Below are positions 23,383 to 49,500 of a stretch of DNA of 64,000 bases, piece by piece (within the stretch, counting starts at the first letter, position 1; the number at the start of each line of letters is the position of its first letter). Source of the stretch: Limnochorda sp. LNt (GTDB lineage: Bacteria > Bacillota > Limnochordia > Limnochordales > Geochordaceae); the NCBI RefSeq assembly GCF_035593265.1, contig NZ_CP141614.1, positions 2,852,001 through 2,916,000 on the forward strand, written 5' to 3'. The position numbers and the translations under genes were made by a program. Below the pieces are notes generated by a model. The model saw nothing but the letters and a program-made list of their open reading frames with translations, ran no database searches and was not told where the DNA came from.

Positions 23383-24987
23383 CTACCTGGAGGGAGTGAG
23401 CACCTTTCCGTTAAGGACGGAACTGGCCATACATCGGTCAACCGCTATCTGGCCGTCGACCAGGACCCAAGTAACGCCGACAGGGAATTGGTGCGGGTTG
23501 GCAAAGGTCGCCCGGTCCGCTATCGTACCGGGATCGAAGACGACAAGGTCAGCGTAGTACCCCTCCCGAACCTCCCCACGCCGAGAAAGGCCCAGCTTCT
23601 GTGACGCTTTTCCTGTCATCTTGTGGATGGCCTCTTCAAGAGAGAGGAGCCGTCGTTCTCTTACGTAGTGTCCAAGAACCCTCGGGAACGTTCCATAGCA
23701 ACGAGGATGCGGATGGCCGCTACCAGTTGGACCTCCCGGGGTGATCGACCAACCGTCGGAACCGAACATAGACTGCGGCTTCGGGATCAGGAAATCTACG
23801 TCGTCTTGCGACATGACGAAGTTGACCATGGAAACCTGGTTATCCTCTTCGACGATAAGATCCATCATAAACTCGACAGGATCCTGGCCAACCTGGTCAG
23901 CTACCTCCTGCACGGTTAACCCTTGCATCCAACGGTTTCTCTCACTACCTACGTGGGCAATCTGAATATCCTTCCAATCAACGGGGAAGAAGTTGGGCCA
24001 GTCCGGTGTACCATGGATAACATCGTAGCGAATGCGGGGCCGCAACTCAGAATCCTTGAGGCGCGCCAGCATTGCCTGCGTGCCTCCGACATGCACCCAA
24101 GGCGGTAGTAACTGGCTCAGATTGGCACTACCGGCCGTATACGGGTAAATGTCATACGTGACGTCAAGGTTCCGGGCTGCCTCCTCAATCAGCGAATAAG
24201 TAACCCGAACTCTCCCCCAGTTCACCCGGCCGGCAGCCTTGTGGTGCGAGATCTGCACACGTACCCCTGCTTCCCTGCCAATCTGCAGCGCCTCTCGCAC
24301 TGAATCCACCACGGTCGACGCCTCGCCGCGCATGTGAGAGGCGTAGAAACCACCATAGCGCGCCACAATCTTGGATAGTTCAATCAGTTCGGAAGTGTCG
24401 CTGTACATGCCTGGAGGGTATACGAGCCCAGTAGACATGCCGAAGGCCCCCGCCTCCATGGCTTCTGTCACCAGGTGGTGCATGGTTTCGAGTTCGTCGG
24501 CTGTCGGAGGCCGTTTGTCGAAACCCATCGCGGCAGAACGAATCGATCCATGCCCGACCAGGGGCACTACGTGGGTAGCAAACCGGGCCTGACGCAGAAC
24601 CTGGAGGTAATCGCCAAAACTTTCCCACGTCCACTCGACGCCGTAGTCATAGATACCTAGCGACTTACGCACGTCCTCCTTAACTTGGTTGGTGATAGGG
24701 GCCGGTGAGAGACCGCAATTACCGATCACTTGGGTAGTGATCCCCTGCCGCACAGTACTTTCGGCCCGACCATCCGCAAGCAGCGCAAGGTCCGAATGGG
24801 TGTGCATGTCGATGAACCCCGGAGCCACGATCTGCCCGGAGGCATCCAGTCGCCGGATAGCGTTCGCGCTGCTAAGGTCCGCGACAGCGACAATCCGGTC
24901 CCCAACGATGCCCACGTCGGCGCGACGGGGAGGAGCACCCGTGCCGTCTACGACAAGGCCGTCGGCAATGATGAGGTCGAATGTCAT
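23383..24987 (-). CDS. N-acyl-D-amino-acid deacylase (D-aminoacylase family amidohydrolase)
   Basis: This zinc amidohydrolase removes the acyl group from N-acyl-D-amino acids. Visible features are the metal site H62/H64 in DMHTHSD, the conserved cysteine C91 in NCGLSPAP, downstream histidines in YASHMRGE and ISHHKAAG, and the catalytic aspartate in GSDGWS. Length (534 aa) fits the D-aminoacylase family. It is the last gene of an operon with a Dpp-type transporter, a PLP lyase, RidA and KDG kinase. N-acetyl-D-glucosaminate is itself an N-acyl-D-amino acid, so it is an attractive substrate; ordinary N-acyl-D-amino acids are the alternative. Codon and base use are less GC-rich than in flanking genes. 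Confidence 0.93.
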   Translation of the reverse strand: MTFDLIIADGLVVDGTGAPPRRADVGIVGDRIVAVADLSSANAIRRLDASGQIVAPGFIDMHTHSDLALLADGRAESTVRQGITTQVIGNCGLSPAPITNQVKEDVRKSLGIYDYGVEWTWESFGDYLQVLRQARFATHVVPLVGHGSIRSAAMGFDKRPPTADELETMHHLVTEAMEAGAFGMSTGLVYPPGMYSDTSELIELSKIVARYGGFYASHMRGEASTVVDSVREALQIGREAGVRVQISHHKAAGRVNWGRVRVTYSLIEEAARNLDVTYDIYPYTAGSANLSQLLPPWVHVGGTQAMLARLKDSELRPRIRYDVIHGTPDWPNFFPVDWKDIQIAHVGSERNRWMQGLTVQEVADQVGQDPVEFMMDLIVEEDNQVSMVNFVMSQDDVDFLIPKPQSMFGSDGWSITPGGPTGSGHPHPRCYGTFPRVLGHYVRERRLLSLEEAIHKMTGKASQKLGLSRRGEVREGYYADLVVFDPGTIADRATFANPHQFPVGVTWVLVDGQIAVDRCMASSVLNGKVLTPSR

Positions 24988-25026
24988 ATTTCCACTTGCT
25001 CCTTCCCAACGTGATTCGAGAAGAGG

Positions 25027-25896
25027 TCAACCGAGACGCCGCAACCTCGGATCCAGTAGGTCGCGCAGACCATCACCAAGCAGATTCAGCCCCAGCACCG
25101 TTAATACAATGGCGAGGCCAGGGAACCACGCGATCCAGGGGGCCACCGTCATGTATTGACGGCCACCCGCCAGGATGTTACCCCAGCTCGGCACGCCGGG
25201 GGGAACTCCCACGCCAAGAAAGCTCAGTGACGCTTCGCCCAGAACGGAAAAGGCGAACGTGAAACTGGCCTGAACAATGAGAGGTGACGCAGCGTTAGGC
25301 AGAACGTGGCGCAAGATTACGCGGGTAGAACTGGCGCCAAGCGCCTGCGCAGCCTGGACATACTCTCTCTCCCGTACGATCAGCACTGCACTGCGTACCA
25401 CCCGCGCCACTCTGGGCGTATAGACGATTCCGAGAGCGATCACGACGTTGCCCATGTTTGGCCCTAGAGCGGCCATCAGAGCTATGGCAAGCAAGAGGTC
25501 CGGCAAGGCCATGAGACCATCCATCACGCGCATGATAGGTGAATCCAAGTATCGAAAGTACCCCGCCAGAAGTCCGCAGATCGTCCCCAAAGAGGTTGAC
25601 AGGATGACTACCAGAGCCCCTACCGACAGCGACAGACGAGCGCCAAACAGCACGCGACTGAGCACGTCGCGCCCCAGTTCATCCGTTCCGAAAGGGTGAA
25701 CCGCTGAGGGAGCTTGCAGTCTGTTCAGGGGATTGATCTGTTCTGGCGGGTAAGGAGCGAGCCAGGGAGCCAGAATACCAGAAGCAGTCGCCAGCAAGGT
25801 CAGCATCAAACCCCCAGCTATTAAGCGATGACGACGCGCCCAGCGCACAGCCCTGGAAGGGTCCAAACCCGGGCTTCGAGTCGACAGCATCCCCAA
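25027..25896 (-). CDS. Dpp/Opp-type ABC transporter permease (DppC-like)
   Basis: This inner-membrane permease has an N-terminal helix, the linker NRLQAPSAVHPFGTDELGRD typical of OppC/DppC, five core helices and the EAA-type loop AAQALGASSTRVILRHVLPN. It forms a heterodimer with the upstream DppB-like permease. TTG 25896 or ATG 25890 could be the start. No ATP-binding subunits are encoded in this operon, so shared ATPases encoded elsewhere must energise it. Family-5 transporters of this kind import peptides and also oligosaccharides such as chitobiose. Confidence 0.93.
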   Translation of the reverse strand: MGMLSTRSPGLDPSRAVRWARRHRLIAGGLMLTLLATASGILAPWLAPYPPEQINPLNRLQAPSAVHPFGTDELGRDVLSRVLFGARLSLSVGALVVILSTSLGTICGLLAGYFRYLDSPIMRVMDGLMALPDLLLAIALMAALGPNMGNVVIALGIVYTPRVARVVRSAVLIVREREYVQAAQALGASSTRVILRHVLPNAASPLIVQASFTFAFSVLGEASLSFLGVGVPPGVPSWGNILAGGRQYMTVAPWIAWFPGLAIVLTVLGLNLLGDGLRDLLDPRLRRLG

Positions 25897-25921
25897 CGGT
25901 TTACCGCCCTCTCGGCGCGTC

Positions 25922-26863
25922 TCAGTACTTAATGCGGGGGTCTACGTACACGTACACAAGGTCTACTAGCAAGTTTACCAACACGTAAATCGCGGCGACG
26001 AGCATGATGGTGGCCTGGATCACGGGGTAATCGCGTCGAAGTACAGACGAGACCACAAGTCGCCCGATCCCGGGGATACCAAACACCGTTTCGGTTACCA
26101 CCGCCCCACCCATGAGCCCTGCGAAAGTTAGCGCAACCACGGTTATAATGGGGACCAGCGCGTTTCGCAGAGCATGTTTGAAGATTACGCGCATCATCGC
26201 TAGACCTTTGGCGCGTGCCACTCGCACGTAATCTTCCCGCAGCACATCAAGCATGGCGGAACGAGTAATGCGCGAAATAAGGGCCGAGTTTGGGAACCCG
26301 AGGGCGATTGACGGCAGAACAAAATAGCGAAGGCTGTCGAGGACACCCGAGCGGAGAGGCAGATAGCCTGCCGCAGGTAACCATCCCAGGCCCACCGCGA
26401 CATACAGGATCAGAGTGAGCCCCAGCCAGAACGATGGGACGGAGGCGCCTAGTAGAGCCATCCCCATCACAAGCTGGTCAACTACAGTGCCTCTTCGAAG
26501 TGCAGCGACTACACCAGCCGGCAGTCCAATCATAATGGCTACTAGTAACGCCATTCCTGCGAGGAGCAGGGTCGGTTCTGCGCGTTCCAAGAGGATGTCC
26601 GACACGGGTCTCTGCGCGAAATGGGAGATCCCCAGGTCTCCTCGTATCATCCTACTAAACCAGGCCACAAACTGTACCATGAGGGGACGATCGAGCGCCA
26701 GCTGCTGTCGCAAACGCTGCACGTCTTCCACCGTGGCGTTAGGTCCGAGCATGACGCTGGCCGGGTCTCCTGGGGCCAGATGAATGAGTAGAAAGGCTAC
26801 GACTGCGACTACGAGCAGCACTACTATCAGCGATAACAGCCGGCGCCCGATGTATTGCAACAA
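25922..26863 (-). CDS. Dpp/Opp-type ABC transporter permease (DppB-like)
   Basis: Six membrane segments follow a short N-terminus (MLQYIGRRLLSLIVVLLVVA), with the family hallmarks FLLIHLAPGDPASVMLG near residue 30 and the EAA loop YVRVARAKGLAMMRVIFKHA. The TTG start at 26863 has GAGGGG about 10 bases upstream. It lies between the binding protein and the DppC-like permease with short gaps, in one transcription unit. Confidence 0.93.
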   Translation of the reverse strand: MLQYIGRRLLSLIVVLLVVAVVAFLLIHLAPGDPASVMLGPNATVEDVQRLRQQLALDRPLMVQFVAWFSRMIRGDLGISHFAQRPVSDILLERAEPTLLLAGMALLVAIMIGLPAGVVAALRRGTVVDQLVMGMALLGASVPSFWLGLTLILYVAVGLGWLPAAGYLPLRSGVLDSLRYFVLPSIALGFPNSALISRITRSAMLDVLREDYVRVARAKGLAMMRVIFKHALRNALVPIITVVALTFAGLMGGAVVTETVFGIPGIGRLVVSSVLRRDYPVIQATIMLVAAIYVLVNLLVDLVYVYVDPRIKY

Positions 26864-26898
26864 GACCTATCGTCCCCTCATATACGACAATTACGACT

Positions 26899-28464
26899 TC
26901 ACCGCTGGAGCCCAACATTCCAGAAGTTGGGCCACGGCGACGCCCACATGTTCACGAGGCGGGCCGTACCGATGTCGAACAGCACCTCCTCGCCCACCCG
27001 GATTGCCGGCACCTCTTCGTAAATGAGCTCCTGGAGCTGGTTCCAAAGTTCGAGTCGACGTGCGTGATCCATCTCCGAGTTGAAGGCCTGCAGCAGACGG
27101 TTCTTCTCGGGGCTATCCCACCAGCCCGGATACTCGCTGCCAAAGATGGTGATTAGCGAAGGATCGGGCACGAAGGCATGGCCCGTTACGAACGCGTCAT
27201 AGGCGTCGGGTTTGCTTCGGCGGTCGAGCAGTGTGGCCCAGTCATATATCTGCAGGTCAACGTTGAACCCCGCCTGTTGCCACTGGGCGGCCACCACCGT
27301 AGCTATCTTGTAGATGTAGTCATATTCCGTAGTGGCGATCAGGCGAATCGGTTCGCCGCGGTAGCCTGCCCTCCCCATCAGTTCTCGAGCGAGCGCTCTG
27401 TTCTTCTGGTTGTAGTAGTGCGCTCCCGCCTTAGAATACCAGGGGGTGCCCGGAGGATAATACGACGGCTCGAGCCGATAAAACGTCGGCAACCCATAGG
27501 CCGCTGCAAGAATTGGCTGCATATCGAGGGCGGCCTGAGCCGCTTGCCGGAGTGTTTGGTTTGCCATCAAGCCTTGCTTCTTGTTGAAGATTACCCATCC
27601 CCACTGGCCTGGTTGAATAGTGAAGGCCTTAACGTTAGGATTCCGCTGGACCTCTGGATAGCTTTCCTTGGTAATCTGAATAGCGTAATCATAGTCACCA
27701 GTCAGAATGCCTGCAAGCCGGCTTCCGGCCTCGGGCACCGGATAGAACTCTATTGCGTCGAGGTAACCGACCTTACTTCCCGCAAACCCGCTCGGCTCAT
27801 CTGATCGAGCCGCATACTGCTCAAACCGTACGAGGCGGATGCGGTAGTCGCGCCGCCACTCCTCAAACCGATAAGGGCCGGTGCCGACGTACTCCGATAT
27901 TGGCTGGTCGCCGAAACGCTCGACAACCGACTTAGGATAGATGGCCGCTGCCGTATTTTGGAAAGCGAGGAAGGCAAGGAGCGGGGCGAACGGCTGTCGG
28001 AGATGAAGCACGACCGTATACGGACCCTGGGCTTCCACTCGGTCGATGTACTGAAACGCAATGCGGCCTCGGCTTGCCACCCGACCCCACCGACTCAAAG
28101 AGGCCACAACGTCCTCAGATGTCATTTCCTTGCCGTTATGAAATCGAACGCCCCGTCGCAACTGGATGGTATATGTTCGTCCGTCCGGGCTGATCTGGTA
28201 AGACTCTGCCAGCATCGGGCGAATCTCGTACTTCGCGTCGAACGCGAAGAGCTGCTCGAAGATGTGCTGCGCAATCATGCTAACCAAGTCAGAAGGTACC
28301 ATTTGGATATCCAGATTCGGAGGTTCGCCTATGGTTGCCACCCTCAGAGTGCCGCCGGAGGGAATCTCGGCGGCAGCTTGCGCTTGCGCAACCATAGCGG
28401 TTAGGCTTGCCGTCAGGACGAGAATCGCCACGATGGTACCTCGACACACGGGATGACAGGTCAT
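26899..28464 (-). CDS. Family-5 extracellular solute-binding protein
   Basis: This is the secreted receptor of the ABC importer. A signal peptide (residues 1-30, TIVAILVLTASLTAMVAQAQ) is followed by the SBP_bac_5 start GGTLRVATIGEPPNLDIQ. Later motifs include YTIQLRRGVRFHNGKEMTSE and VVLHLRQPFAPLLAFLAF, both diagnostic of the family. There is no lipobox cysteine, so it may stay anchored by an uncleaved helix or be periplasmic if the cell has an outer membrane. Family-5 receptors bind peptides, nickel, opines and chitin oligosaccharides; the operon context favours a chitin-derived amino-sugar acid or N-acyl-D-amino acid. Confidence 0.93.
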   Translation of the reverse strand: MTCHPVCRGTIVAILVLTASLTAMVAQAQAAAEIPSGGTLRVATIGEPPNLDIQMVPSDLVSMIAQHIFEQLFAFDAKYEIRPMLAESYQISPDGRTYTIQLRRGVRFHNGKEMTSEDVVASLSRWGRVASRGRIAFQYIDRVEAQGPYTVVLHLRQPFAPLLAFLAFQNTAAAIYPKSVVERFGDQPISEYVGTGPYRFEEWRRDYRIRLVRFEQYAARSDEPSGFAGSKVGYLDAIEFYPVPEAGSRLAGILTGDYDYAIQITKESYPEVQRNPNVKAFTIQPGQWGWVIFNKKQGLMANQTLRQAAQAALDMQPILAAAYGLPTFYRLEPSYYPPGTPWYSKAGAHYYNQKNRALARELMGRAGYRGEPIRLIATTEYDYIYKIATVVAAQWQQAGFNVDLQIYDWATLLDRRSKPDAYDAFVTGHAFVPDPSLITIFGSEYPGWWDSPEKNRLLQAFNSEMDHARRLELWNQLQELIYEEVPAIRVGEEVLFDIGTARLVNMWASPWPNFWNVGLQR

Positions 28465-28518
28465 TCTCTCGAGCCCTCCTTTGCTACAAGCGGTAGTCCA
28501 TATCCCCGTAGCACTACA

Positions 28519-29643
28519 CTACAACCTTGCGGCCACCCCCAAGAGCCTGTCTACCACCAGCTCGGCCTCACCCTCCTCTAAAGTCATGGGATTGATGTAA
28601 ACCCCGTCCTCGCCTTCGAGCGTCACAGCGATGGCAGGATCTCCAGCCAGAAGCGCATCTCGCACTGCTGCTGCCCAGCCCAGGGCACCCGGTTTACGTA
28701 CTAGTGCACGAGGGATCGGTTGCCCGGCCTCGTTGGGGAAGGTCCGAATGGCCTGCAGTCCGAGGCCTCCCGCCTCAACACGCTCAATGACTAGGCGTAC
28801 CTGGCGCTCACACCACTGAAGTCGAGCGGCATGATCCATCTTTACGTAACGCTCGACAGCAGCCATTAGGCCAGCTAGCTCTTCGCGGCCTACTTTCAAC
28901 ATTCGCCCGATGCCATAGGTCGGAAATCCTGTTTCGGCTATCGCTTCTACAAACTGTCTGCGCCCCAGCACCAGTCCCGTAGATTGTGGCCCTCGCAGGT
29001 CCTTGCCACCGCTGAAAACCGCCGCATCCGCCCCCGCCTGCGTCAGCGACCAGAGGTTCTCTACCGGCGGAAGCTGCGCTGCGGCATCTACGACGACAGG
29101 CACTCGGTGGCGGCGGGCAACCTCAATCACCGCTTTCAAGGGCAACGCACCAGGAGCAGTCCACCCCGACATGGTGTAGAAGATAGCCACCGTTCGTTGG
29201 GTGATGGACGCCTCCAGTTCATCCACGGTCGGCGGGTCGATAGTGTTTGGGTAGCCCACCTCAACGAGGCGAACGCCCAATTGTCGCACAGCCCAGTCGT
29301 ACGGGTTTCGGTGTGCCCTGTAAACCACGACCTCAGAGTTAGCAACTTCTTCAGACTTGAGCCATCGGAAGGGCTTTCCAAAGCGTAGCGATACAGCAGC
29401 AGCCGCCGCAAGATAGAGCCCCGCGGCGCACCCGCACGTGACGTATGCGCCTTCGTTCCGAGTGAGCTCGGCGATACGGGCGTGTACCCGGGCCTGGAAG
29501 TCCTGGATGCGAGTAAAGGAGGAAGCCGCCGATACCATGGCCTCAATGACCTCGCGCGGCATCCGTGACCCACCAAATACAGTATAGGTCCCGGCCGCGT
29601 TGACAAGCCGCGGCATCCCGAGATCCGCGTAGATGTCTCGCAA
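28519..29643 (-). CDS. SelA-like PLP-dependent ammonia-lyase (D-glucosaminate/D-amino acid type)
   Basis: This fold-type I PLP enzyme is related to selenocysteine synthase SelA and D-glucosaminate-6-phosphate ammonia-lyase DgaE. The Schiff-base lysine is K214 in FSGGKDLRGPQSTG, the pyridine-contacting aspartate is D186 in VVVDAAAQLPP, and CGCAAGLYLAAAAAV matches the N-terminal phosphate-cup region. TTG 29643 has GGAGG 8 bases upstream. With RidA next door the likely chemistry is alpha,beta-elimination of ammonia or water from a D-amino acid, giving an enamine/imine that becomes a 2-keto acid. Acting on D-glucosaminate it would give 2-keto-3-deoxygluconate, the substrate of the upstream kinase. 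Confidence 0.85.
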   Translation of the reverse strand: MRDIYADLGMPRLVNAAGTYTVFGGSRMPREVIEAMVSAASSFTRIQDFQARVHARIAELTRNEGAYVTCGCAAGLYLAAAAAVSLRFGKPFRWLKSEEVANSEVVVYRAHRNPYDWAVRQLGVRLVEVGYPNTIDPPTVDELEASITQRTVAIFYTMSGWTAPGALPLKAVIEVARRHRVPVVVDAAAQLPPVENLWSLTQAGADAAVFSGGKDLRGPQSTGLVLGRRQFVEAIAETGFPTYGIGRMLKVGREELAGLMAAVERYVKMDHAARLQWCERQVRLVIERVEAGGLGLQAIRTFPNEAGQPIPRALVRKPGALGWAAAVRDALLAGDPAIAVTLEGEDGVYINPMTLEEGEAELVVDRLLGVAARL

Positions 29644-29691
29644 GCCGCTTCCTCCCTTGCTTCCCGATCAGCCACAGTGATGGTGTGACCG

Positions 29692-30150
29692 TCACCCAAT
29701 GGCGACAATCAGTTCCACCTCCACCGGGATCCCAAACGGGAGTTCACTTGTGCCGATGGCAGTTCTTGCATGCTTTCCAGCATCACCGAAGACGGCTTCC
29801 AACAGTTCGGAAGCACCATTAATCACAAACGGCTGACGACCGAACCCGGTCGCGCTGCGTACCCATCCCGTCAACTTCACGACGCGGCGGACTTCTGACA
29901 GGGAACTGAGTTCGGCCTTAAGTACCGCAAGAGCGTTCAACGCCGCCAGGCGTGCGGCCGCATAGCCCTGTTCTTCCGAGAGGTCAGCCCCCACAACCCC
30001 CTGATACGCTGGCTTCCCGTCACGTATCGGCCCCTGACCGGAGACAAAGACCAGCTTACCTACGACTATGGCCGGCACATACGCTGCCACAGGCGCTGGA
30101 GGTGAAGGCAACGCCAATCCGAGTTGGGCTAGACGCTCCTCCGGCGACAT
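29692..30150 (-). CDS. RidA/YjgF-family enamine/imine deaminase
   Basis: Rid proteins hydrolyse reactive enamine and imine intermediates released by PLP-dependent lyases. The family core is visible: GKLVFVSGQGPIRDG, the active-site arginine R129 in HARTAIGTSELPFG and the following glutamate in IPVEVELIV. The length (152 aa) and the N-terminal extension suggest the Rid subgroup with ~150 residues. It lies 48 bases upstream of the PLP lyase, supporting a dedicated role in completing that reaction to the keto acid. Confidence 0.92.
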   Translation of the reverse strand: MSPEERLAQLGLALPSPPAPVAAYVPAIVVGKLVFVSGQGPIRDGKPAYQGVVGADLSEEQGYAAARLAALNALAVLKAELSSLSEVRRVVKLTGWVRSATGFGRQPFVINGASELLEAVFGDAGKHARTAIGTSELPFGIPVEVELIVAIG

Positions 30151-46653: not shown

Positions 46654-46664
46654 TGGTCGGACCA
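46654..46664. promoter_or_regulatory. FadR-like operator
   Basis: TGGTC-G-GACCA is a perfect odd palindrome matching the core of the E. coli FadR box (CTGGTCnGACCAG; here preceded by C). It lies 42 bases upstream of the FadR-type gene. A weaker dyad, ATGGTCTGTCCAT, follows at 46675-46687. Confidence 0.65.
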
Positions 46665-46705
46665 CACAGCCCACATGGTCTGTCCATCGCGGGAGACGGT
46701 GCGAG

Positions 46706-47032
46706 ATGGGTCTGCAAGCGGTGAGCAACTCGGTCCGCCTGCGTTGCGGCGGGCGGGCCCGTGGCTGGTCCGAACGGGCCGAGACCCAACTGGTGCGCGC
46801 CATCCTCCAGGGCCGCCACCGGCCCGGCACCTGGCTGCCACCCGAGCGCGAGCTGGCCGCTCTCCTCGGCGTCTCCCGGCCGGCCCTACGTGAGGCCCTG
46901 CAGCGTCTGGCCCTGGACGGCTGGATCACCCTGCGACGCGGGCAGCCCGCCGTCGTCATCGAGCTTTGGAGGGTGTCATGCGAGGGTGAGACGCCATGCG
47001 ACGATGGAACGGCTGGGGCGATGAGCGGGTGA
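46706..47032 (+). CDS. FadR/GntR DNA-binding domain without the acyl-CoA domain
   Basis: The winged-helix domain is strikingly like FadR: RAILQGRHRPGTWLPPEREL then AALLGVSRPALREALQRLAL and DGWITLRRGQPAVVIELWRV. E. coli FadR reads similarly, ending NNFWETS. Normal FadR proteins have a further ~160-residue ligand-binding domain; here the frame ends about 12 residues after the wing (stop 47030-47032), inside the start of the next gene. It is thus either a truncated gene or a minimal ligand-blind repressor. The FadR-like operator upstream suggests that binding specificity is maintained. Confidence 0.75.
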   Translation: MGLQAVSNSVRLRCGGRARGWSERAETQLVRAILQGRHRPGTWLPPERELAALLGVSRPALREALQRLALDGWITLRRGQPAVVIELWRVSCEGETPCDDGTAGAMSG

Positions 47033-49500
47033 CCTATCCCGTGCCGCCGGGGGCCCGCCGCCTGCTCGGGGCGGCGGTGGGGCCCGGCGAGCGGCCCCGT
47101 GACGCGACCCTACCCGAGGTGGTGGCCCGAGTCCCGCCCTCCCGCCTGCCCCCTCATCCCCTGGTGAGCGTCGACGCCGAGCAGCGGGTGCGCCATGCCC
47201 TGGGACAGAGCCTGCCCGACTGGATCGCCGCGCGCAGCGGGCGCATCCCGGCCTTCCCCGATGGGGTCGCCTACCCCGCCACGCCCGAGGAGGTGCTTGA
47301 GCTGCTGCGCTTCGCAGCCGCCAGCGGCGCCCGGCTCATCCCCTACGGCGGTGGCACCAGCGTGGTGGGGCACCTGACGGTGCCGCCCGGCGAGGCCCCG
47401 GTGCTCAGCGTCGATCTGGACCGCCTCAGCCGCCTGATTCGCCTCGACGAGCGAAGCGCCCTGGCCACCTTCGGGGCGGGGGTGAGGGGGCCCGAGCTGG
47501 AGGCGTCCCTGCGGGCCCGGGGCTGGACGCTGGGCCACTACCCCCAATCGTTCGAGTACTCGACCCTGGGGGGCTGGGTGGCCACCCGCTCGGCCGGGCA
47601 GCAGTCCATCTGGTACGGGCGTATCGAGGACCTCTTCGCCGGCGGCGTGCTGGAGGCCCCCGCCGGCACGGTGACGCTGCCGCCGTGGCCGGCCTCCGCG
47701 GCCGGGCCGGACCTGCGCCACCTGGTGCTGGGCTCGGAGGGGCGCCTCGGCATCCTGACCGAGGTGACGGTGCGGGTGCGGCGGCTCCCCGAGGCCGAGG
47801 CGTTCGCGGCGGTCTTCTTCCCGGCCTTCGAGCCGGGCCTCGAGGCGATGCGGGCGCTGGCGCAGGCGGAGGTGGGGCTCTCGATGGTGCGCCTGAGCAC
47901 CCCCGGGGAGACCGCCACCACCCTGGCCATGGCCGGCCACGAACGGGCGTTGCGCCTGCTGGAGCGGTGGGTCGCCCTCCGGGGAGCCGGACCCGACAAG
48001 TGCCTGCTCATCCTGGGCGCCACGGGCTGGCGCTCGCACGTCCGCCGGGCGCTGGCCCGGGCCCTGGCCATCTGCGCCGACCACCGGGGCGTCTACGCCG
48101 GGCGCACCTTCGGGCGGGAGTGGGTGCGCCAGCGTTTCCGAGCCCCCTACCTGCGCAACACCCTTTGGGAGATGGGCTACGCCGTCGACACCCTGGAGAC
48201 CGCAGGCACCTGGGTGCAGGTGCCGGGCCTGGTGACCGCCGTCGAGCGGGCCCTGCAGGGCGCCCTGGAGGCCGAGGGCGAGCGCGTCTACGTCTTCACC
48301 CACCTCTCCCACGTCTATCGCCAGGGCTCCAACGTCTACACCACCTACCTCTTCCGGCTGGCCCCGGACCCCGAGGTCAACCTGCGACGGTGGCGGCGTC
48401 TCAAGGAGGCGGCCAGCCGCGCCATCGTGGCCGCGGGCGGCACCGTCAGCCACCAGCACGGGGAGGTGACCGGCCTCCTGCAGCGCCGCAGCGGCGCGGT
48501 GGAGGGGGTGGCGGTGCGAGACCGGGTGAGCGGCCGCACCGCCGAGGTGCGCGCCCGGGTGGTGATCAACGCCGCGGGCGCCTGGGCGGACGCCCTGCGG
48601 GGCCAGGTGGGCCGCCCGCCGCGGCTGCGGCAGCTGCGCGGCAGCCACCTGCTCTTCCCGGGCTGGCGAGTGCCTTTGGCCACGGGCCTCAACCTGTTCC
48701 ATCCACGAGACGGCCGCCCCCTTTACGTGCTGCCGTGGGAGGGCATGACGCTGGTGGGCACGACCGACGTCGACCACGGCGACGGCCTCGACGACGAGCC
48801 CCGCATCCATCCCGACGAAGGAGCGTACCTGCTGGAGGCGGTGCAGCATCTCTTCCCGGCGCTGGACCTTGAGGCCCGAGACGTGGTGGCCACCTTCGCC
48901 GGCGTGCGGCCCGTGGTCGGCTCCGGCAAGGCCGATCCCTCCCGGGAGCCCCGGGACTGGGCCATCTGGGACGAGGGGCTGGTCACCGTGACGGGCGGCA
49001 AGCTCACCACCTTCGGAGCCATGGCGCGGGCGGCCATGGCCGCGGCCCGCCGGCGCCTGCCCGATGCGCCGGATAAGCGGCCGACCGAGGAGTCGGGCAG
49101 CCACCGAGGCGAGCCGGCCCGCGACGCGGCCGAGGCCCTGGCGTCGCTCGACGAGACCCTGCGCCGGCGCCTGCTGGGCCGCTACGGTCACCGGACCGTG
49201 GATCTGGTGCGCCGGGCCCGCCCCGGCGAGCTGGAGCTCGTCCCCGGCACGACCGTCACGTGGGCGGAGCTGCGCTGGGCCATCGAGGAGGAGTCTGTCG
49301 TGCACCTCGACGACCTGCTCCTGCGGCGGGTGCGGCTCGGGCTGCAGCTCCCTCAGGGCGGGGCGGCCATGCTGCCCCGGCTGCGTCCGCTGGCACAGGA
49401 GAGCCTGGGCTGGGACGACGCGCGTTGGGAGGCTGAGGCGTCTCGCTACCGGCAGCTCTGGGCTTGGGCATGCGGCCCAGAGAATCTGGCAGCCGGGTAG
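46996..49500 (+). CDS. In-frame fusion of alkyl-DHAP-synthase-like FAD oxidase with the C-terminal half of GlpD
   Basis: Residues 1-~489 are an alkyldihydroxyacetonephosphate synthase-like flavoprotein: N-terminal RRWNGWG as in AGPS, FAD_binding_4 motif PYGGGTSVVGHL (about 114-125), STLGGWVATRSAGQ and YGRIEDLF, ending at GTVSHQHG, part of the AGPS active-site histidine motif. From ~490 the sequence becomes glycerol-3-phosphate dehydrogenase: EVTGLLQRRSGAVEGVAVRD, VVINAAGAWAD, GTTDVDHGD, FAGVRPVV, TVTGGKLTTFG and a DAO_C-type domain. The AGPS tail and GlpD's N-terminal GxGxxG FAD fold are both missing. ATG 46996 is kept because RRWNGWG is conserved. Activity of the chimera is unknown. Confidence 0.85.
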   Translation: MRRWNGWGDERVTYPVPPGARRLLGAAVGPGERPRDATLPEVVARVPPSRLPPHPLVSVDAEQRVRHALGQSLPDWIAARSGRIPAFPDGVAYPATPEEVLELLRFAAASGARLIPYGGGTSVVGHLTVPPGEAPVLSVDLDRLSRLIRLDERSALATFGAGVRGPELEASLRARGWTLGHYPQSFEYSTLGGWVATRSAGQQSIWYGRIEDLFAGGVLEAPAGTVTLPPWPASAAGPDLRHLVLGSEGRLGILTEVTVRVRRLPEAEAFAAVFFPAFEPGLEAMRALAQAEVGLSMVRLSTPGETATTLAMAGHERALRLLERWVALRGAGPDKCLLILGATGWRSHVRRALARALAICADHRGVYAGRTFGREWVRQRFRAPYLRNTLWEMGYAVDTLETAGTWVQVPGLVTAVERALQGALEAEGERVYVFTHLSHVYRQGSNVYTTYLFRLAPDPEVNLRRWRRLKEAASRAIVAAGGTVSHQHGEVTGLLQRRSGAVEGVAVRDRVSGRTAEVRARVVINAAGAWADALRGQVGRPPRLRQLRGSHLLFPGWRVPLATGLNLFHPRDGRPLYVLPWEGMTLVGTTDVDHGDGLDDEPRIHPDEGAYLLEAVQHLFPALDLEARDVVATFAGVRPVVGSGKADPSREPRDWAIWDEGLVTVTGGKLTTFGAMARAAMAAARRRLPDAPDKRPTEESGSHRGEPARDAAEALASLDETLRRRLLGRYGHRTVDLVRRARPGELELVPGTTVTWAELRWAIEEESVVHLDDLLLRRVRLGLQLPQGGAAMLPRLRPLAQESLGWDDARWEAEASRYRQLWAWACGPENLAAG

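Follow-up and report, generated by a model that had tools for sequence, protein, structure and literature searches.

Probable decay, by two deletions, of a duplicated FadR-AGPS-GlpD-kinase operon in Limnochorda sp. LNt

Within a 64,000-nucleotide stretch of the Limnochorda sp. LNt genome (the window), a short ORF encodes 108 aa that begin as a FadR-type regulator. Two FadR-type boxes lie upstream of it, and the adjoining ORF, an open frame of 834 aa, is a chimera of AGPS and GlpD, as the preliminary description of the locus had partly anticipated in speaking of an adjoining chimera. These features are listed here, together with an intact operon found elsewhere in the same genome.

46654..46664: FadR-type box 1, TGGTCGGACCA, a perfect palindrome upstream of the FadR ORF
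46676..46686: FadR-type box 2, TGGTCTGTCCA, 9/10 matches, 22 bp from box 1 (start to start)
46706..46969, plus strand: retained part of FadR, comprising the N-terminus and the winged helix-turn-helix and closing with the final Trp of the linker motif (VIELW here, VNDFW in the intact operon)
46970..47032, plus strand: tail of the truncated ORF, read through out of frame, about 20 residues without homology
near 46970: deletion junction 1
46996..48463, plus strand: AGPS (alkyl-DHAP synthase-like) residues 1-489, ending in SHQHG; the last ~45 residues (VGxDH...DPxGIMNPGKL) are lost
about 48464: deletion junction 2
48464..49500, plus strand: C-terminal ~340 residues of GlpD, fused in frame to AGPS; the N-terminal Rossmann FAD-binding part is lost
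C1:2126-2131 kb, minus strand: intact operon (G000, L039) of FadR (260 aa), AGPS (535 aa), GlpD (563 aa) and an FGGY kinase

Elsewhere in the window, a minus-strand gene block (23383-30150) has a low third-position GC, 0.60-0.67 compared with about 0.9 around it, and is probably acquired DNA; it contains an amidohydrolase, an SBP_bac_5 binding protein and an aminotransferase/SelA-like protein.

The translation of the plus-strand ORF at 46706-47032 contains a GntR-type winged helix with the DNA-contact residues of FadR (PF00392, E 4.2e-19, residues 23-84). The Pfam scan of the 108 aa found no domain after GntR and no match to PF07840 (FadR_C, the acyl-CoA domain), whose S219 and W223 are thus absent; similarly, the top PDB match, E. 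coli FadR 1e2x, covers residues 23-91 only. The next ORF starts at 46996, overlapping the end of the FadR ORF by 37 bases. The preliminary description, in which the protein is FadR-like to the end of the wing, stops inside the next gene and lacks about 160 residues of ligand domain, was therefore accurate; compared with the 260-aa intact paralogue, about 165 residues are missing. Comparison with the full-length FadR of the intact paralogue gave the same picture: the match runs to Trp88, after which the acyl-CoA domain is missing from the window copy.

Both boxes that had been described, a core FadR box and a second, weaker dyad, are present upstream of the ORF and conform to the TGGTNxACCA operator type. 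The pattern TGGTCNGACCA occurs once in the window, at box 1 (0.10 expected), and TGGTCSGACCA has a single occurrence in the whole 3.02-Mb genome, again at box 1. The intact operon has TGGTCAGACCA and TGGTCAAACCA upstream, also 22 bp apart. Twin boxes at this spacing precede the intact FadR of the same genome and those of G005, G008, L057 and L073, giving six distinct loci, window included, versus 1 of 820 shuffles. More broadly, a box with at least 8/10 matches lies upstream in 37 of 41 FadR arrays (a count that includes the window and takes one record twice), compared with 9% of mononucleotide shuffles. Before FadR-led operons of this genome, FadR boxes were found only as the twin pairs of the window and intact copies. 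We considered a FadR regulon elsewhere in the genome and rejected it: other matches to TGGTCNNACCA were few, fewer than for the reversed-pattern control, and the palindromic match, at 1,246,764, sits within a coding ORF. A scan for sigma-70 promoters and terminators found none.

Searching the genome with the 834-aa neighbor uncovered a further locus on the minus strand, at C1:2,126-2,131 kb. Its FadR (L039:5615-6397) has both GntR and FadR_C domains (1.7e-34) and aligns with E. coli FadR 1e2x over the greater part of its length (1.9e-45); the match of the E. coli FadR sequence used in our comparisons was verified with PDB 1e2x. Its AGPS matches Dictyostelium AGPS 2uuu over 490 residues (E 2.7e-78), and its GlpD has a complete DAO domain (4.6e-53). 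DNA alignment of the window with this copy gives 71-76% nucleotide identity, interrupted by two gaps. The first opens at FadR Trp88 (46969) and closes at the start of AGPS, with 26 bases in the window against 585 in the intact copy (a net loss of about 560 bp). In the second, 2 bases replace 694 (a net loss of about 690 bp), fusing AGPS residue 489 to about GlpD residue 200. The kinase is absent from the window copy, and an MFS transporter follows instead. The earlier suggestion that the locus had lost two pieces of DNA is thus supported both by the intact paralogous operon and by the same array in other genomes; paralogue and orthologues expose probably inactivating deletions in the window copy. 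We also considered whether the lost pieces had been moved or split off elsewhere; weak or distant relatives aside, the search placed FadR_C and the GlpD N-terminus at the intact locus alone. A third GlpD, distant (38% identity), lies at G000:C1:2,729,073-2,730,746.

Neither half of the chimera is a complete enzyme. An AGPS combines FAD_binding_4 with a full FAD-oxidase_C reaching the C-terminal NPGK motif; the FAD-oxidase_C match of the chimera stops at profile position 209 of 248, compared with 1-248 in the intact paralogue, and the NPGK segment that it lacks is invariant in all four aligned intact copies. A GlpD combines an N-terminal DAO FAD-binding fold with DAO_C, and only the DAO_C match remains. 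Without FAD-binding parts of both enzymes, the chimera is probably inactive.

The intact arrangement is not peculiar to this genome. Among 60 related genomes, G005 carries an intact array and G008 carries it on two contigs. In a same-genus draft, G001 (L040, contig 116, 1-3825), AGPS and GlpD adjoin, with a spermidine-synthase-like gene and no FadR upstream, so this regulator is open to loss or replacement. A scan of a species-genome collection gave 80 AGPS relatives from several phyla, 38 of them with FadR directly upstream (one cut by a contig end), mostly with GlpD and often with the kinase downstream. No cut or fused array was seen among those of the 80 in which the available sequence covers FadR and GlpD in full. 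The DNA contacts R35, R45 and R49 and the acyl-CoA contacts S219 and W223 are present in 35/35 of the relatives' FadR proteins, and G216 is replaced by Met in all 35.

In the AGPS tree, the window and intact copies are sisters (99/95), with branches of 0.24 and 0.12, respectively. Relative-rate tests with outgroup L057 found the window copy faster for AGPS (47 versus 24, p 0.006) and GlpD (41 versus 19, p 0.005); with outgroup G001 the difference was significant for GlpD, and with the farther outgroups G005 and G008, or on the short HTH, it was not significant. Departures at near-invariant columns were 2/134 in both copies for AGPS, 1 (window) versus 0 (intact) of 64 for GlpD, and 1 versus 1 of 17 for the HTH. 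The signs on relaxed constraint are mixed: a faster window branch, with relative rates depending on outgroup, and no excess of departures at conserved columns; dS was near saturation, and dN/dS was left out of the argument. That the conserved columns are kept to about the same degree implies that the copy was functional for most of its history. A conserved remnant with an open frame in turn implies that the deletions are recent, or that some part is still used, or that they are not real. Of these, we take the deletions to be recent, with an artefact less likely.

Our preferred explanation, to which we give a probability of roughly 0.7, is that the window holds a lineage-specific duplicate of the FadR-AGPS-GlpD-kinase operon in recent decay by two deletions, with function kept by the intact copy. 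In this reading, the conserved operon was duplicated within the lineage, and two recent internal deletions (net about 560 and 690 bp) then struck the duplicate; the kinase gene is also absent from it. The intact copy would retain the operon's function. The parent operon was probably autoregulated: by analogy with E. coli FadR, FadR dimers at the twin boxes would repress the intact operon, and long-chain acyl-CoA would free them from the boxes. The stub and the chimera are probably inactive and would be non-functional remnants, while the window promoter may still bind intact FadR supplied by the other locus. The sister intact copy, the conserved twin boxes, the two gaps and the lack of the missing pieces elsewhere in the genome all support decay of a duplicate; against it, the remnant is about as conserved as the intact copy at near-invariant columns, and its 834-codon frame is open.

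A rival reading is an assembly artefact, with both gaps produced by misjoining and two intact operons in the cell. Outside the gaps, conserved sites of the window copy are undecayed, and two gaps of similar size lie 1.5 kb apart within one operon, both of which would suit it. However, the paralogue, only about 75% identical, is too divergent to have driven a collapse of repeats; the genome forms a single contig, for which Nanopore and Illumina reads were combined if the strain is one of the two isolates of PMC11456536; and the missing kinase also fits real decay. More extensive decay or misassembly across the window was considered too and rejected: a Pfam scan of 30 other ORFs, judged where a Pfam match existed, found no comparable cut, and the other genes scanned are whole. 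We consider an artefact rather unlikely.

It is also conceivable that the 108-aa stub acts as a ligand-blind, dominant repressor, still able to bind the twin boxes at its own locus and perhaps at the intact operon as well. It keeps R35, R45 and R49, has Ser for T44 as the intact copy does, and shows no clear excess decay in its HTH; T46 is replaced by Pro, as in all relatives, and both boxes and their 22-bp spacing are intact. However, T47, present in 34/35 homologues, is replaced by Ala, H65 by Arg, and the linker motif NDFW/NNFW has lost its Asn. The tail is out of frame, the gene downstream is itself broken, and an HTH-only FadR occurs in no relative. In structures of the FadR subgroup, moreover, contacts run across the dimer between the DNA-binding domain of one subunit and the effector domain of its partner (PMC7797058). 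We think a working repressor unlikely. A more specific version, in which a recent deletion made an acyl-CoA-blind stub that vies with intact FadR for the twin boxes in both operons and so rewires an ether-lipid/G3P operon, strikes us as about equally unlikely. The earlier idea of a minimal repressor acting constitutively on ether-lipid/G3P metabolism gained no positive evidence; the tail is out of frame, and the downstream enzyme that it would control is without FAD-binding parts of both halves.

Finally, selection of the in-frame AGPS-GlpD chimera as a new protein, with truncation of FadR a side effect, would account for the 834-codon frame and the conserved AGPS residues, but the C-terminal NPGK segment of AGPS and the dinucleotide fold of GlpD (its DAO match) are lost, in-frame joining is expected by chance in 1/3 of cases, and no such fusion occurs among the 80 relatives, and we regard it as very improbable.

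The window locus is most likely instructive but ordinary duplicate decay; the more interesting lead is the FadR-AGPS operon outside the gamma-proteobacteria. In 2014, fatty-acid-responsive FadR was stated to be exclusive to gamma-proteobacteria, in a study that also gives the DNA and acyl-CoA contact residues (PMC4259882); Chloroflexi are known to have regulators of the FadR subfamily in the broad GntR sense (PMC4494728). In several phyla outside the gamma-proteobacteria, we find full-length FadR (PF07840), with S219/W223 and TGGTCAGACCA-type boxes, at the head of AGPS-GlpD(-kinase) operons. FadR-headed AGPS-GlpD operons occur in Chloroflexota, Bacillota, Thermodesulfobacteriota, Actinomycetota and Acidobacteriota; example loci of FadR-headed AGPS operons include L059, L065, L090, L105, L109, L115, L123 and L131, among others. 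Nothing relevant to FadR together with AGPS, or to FadR, Chloroflexi and glycerol-3-phosphate dehydrogenase in combination, turned up in the papers searched. Should the operon make alkyl-ether lipids, control of bacterial ether-lipid synthesis by acyl-CoA would become open to test.

Compared with known systems, the winged helix of the window protein is 51% identical over 67 aa to that of E. coli FadR (PDB 1e2x, 1hw1; PF00392 and PF07840), with Arg35, Arg45, Arg49 and a TGGTNxACCA-type operator in common; it differs in the missing acyl-CoA domain, T47A, H65R and the out-of-frame tail. From AGPS (PDB 2uuu, Dictyostelium; 4bby) the window keeps residues 1-489, to SHQHG, and lacks the last ~45. 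From GlpD (NF008899; PF01266 and PF16901) it has the C-terminal ~340 residues, including DAO_C, whereas the N-terminal Rossmann FAD-binding part is absent. A further close system is the intact operon of the same genome, which shares the gene order, twin boxes 22 bp apart and 71-76% of nucleotides, and from which the window copy differs by its two deletions and the lack of a kinase.
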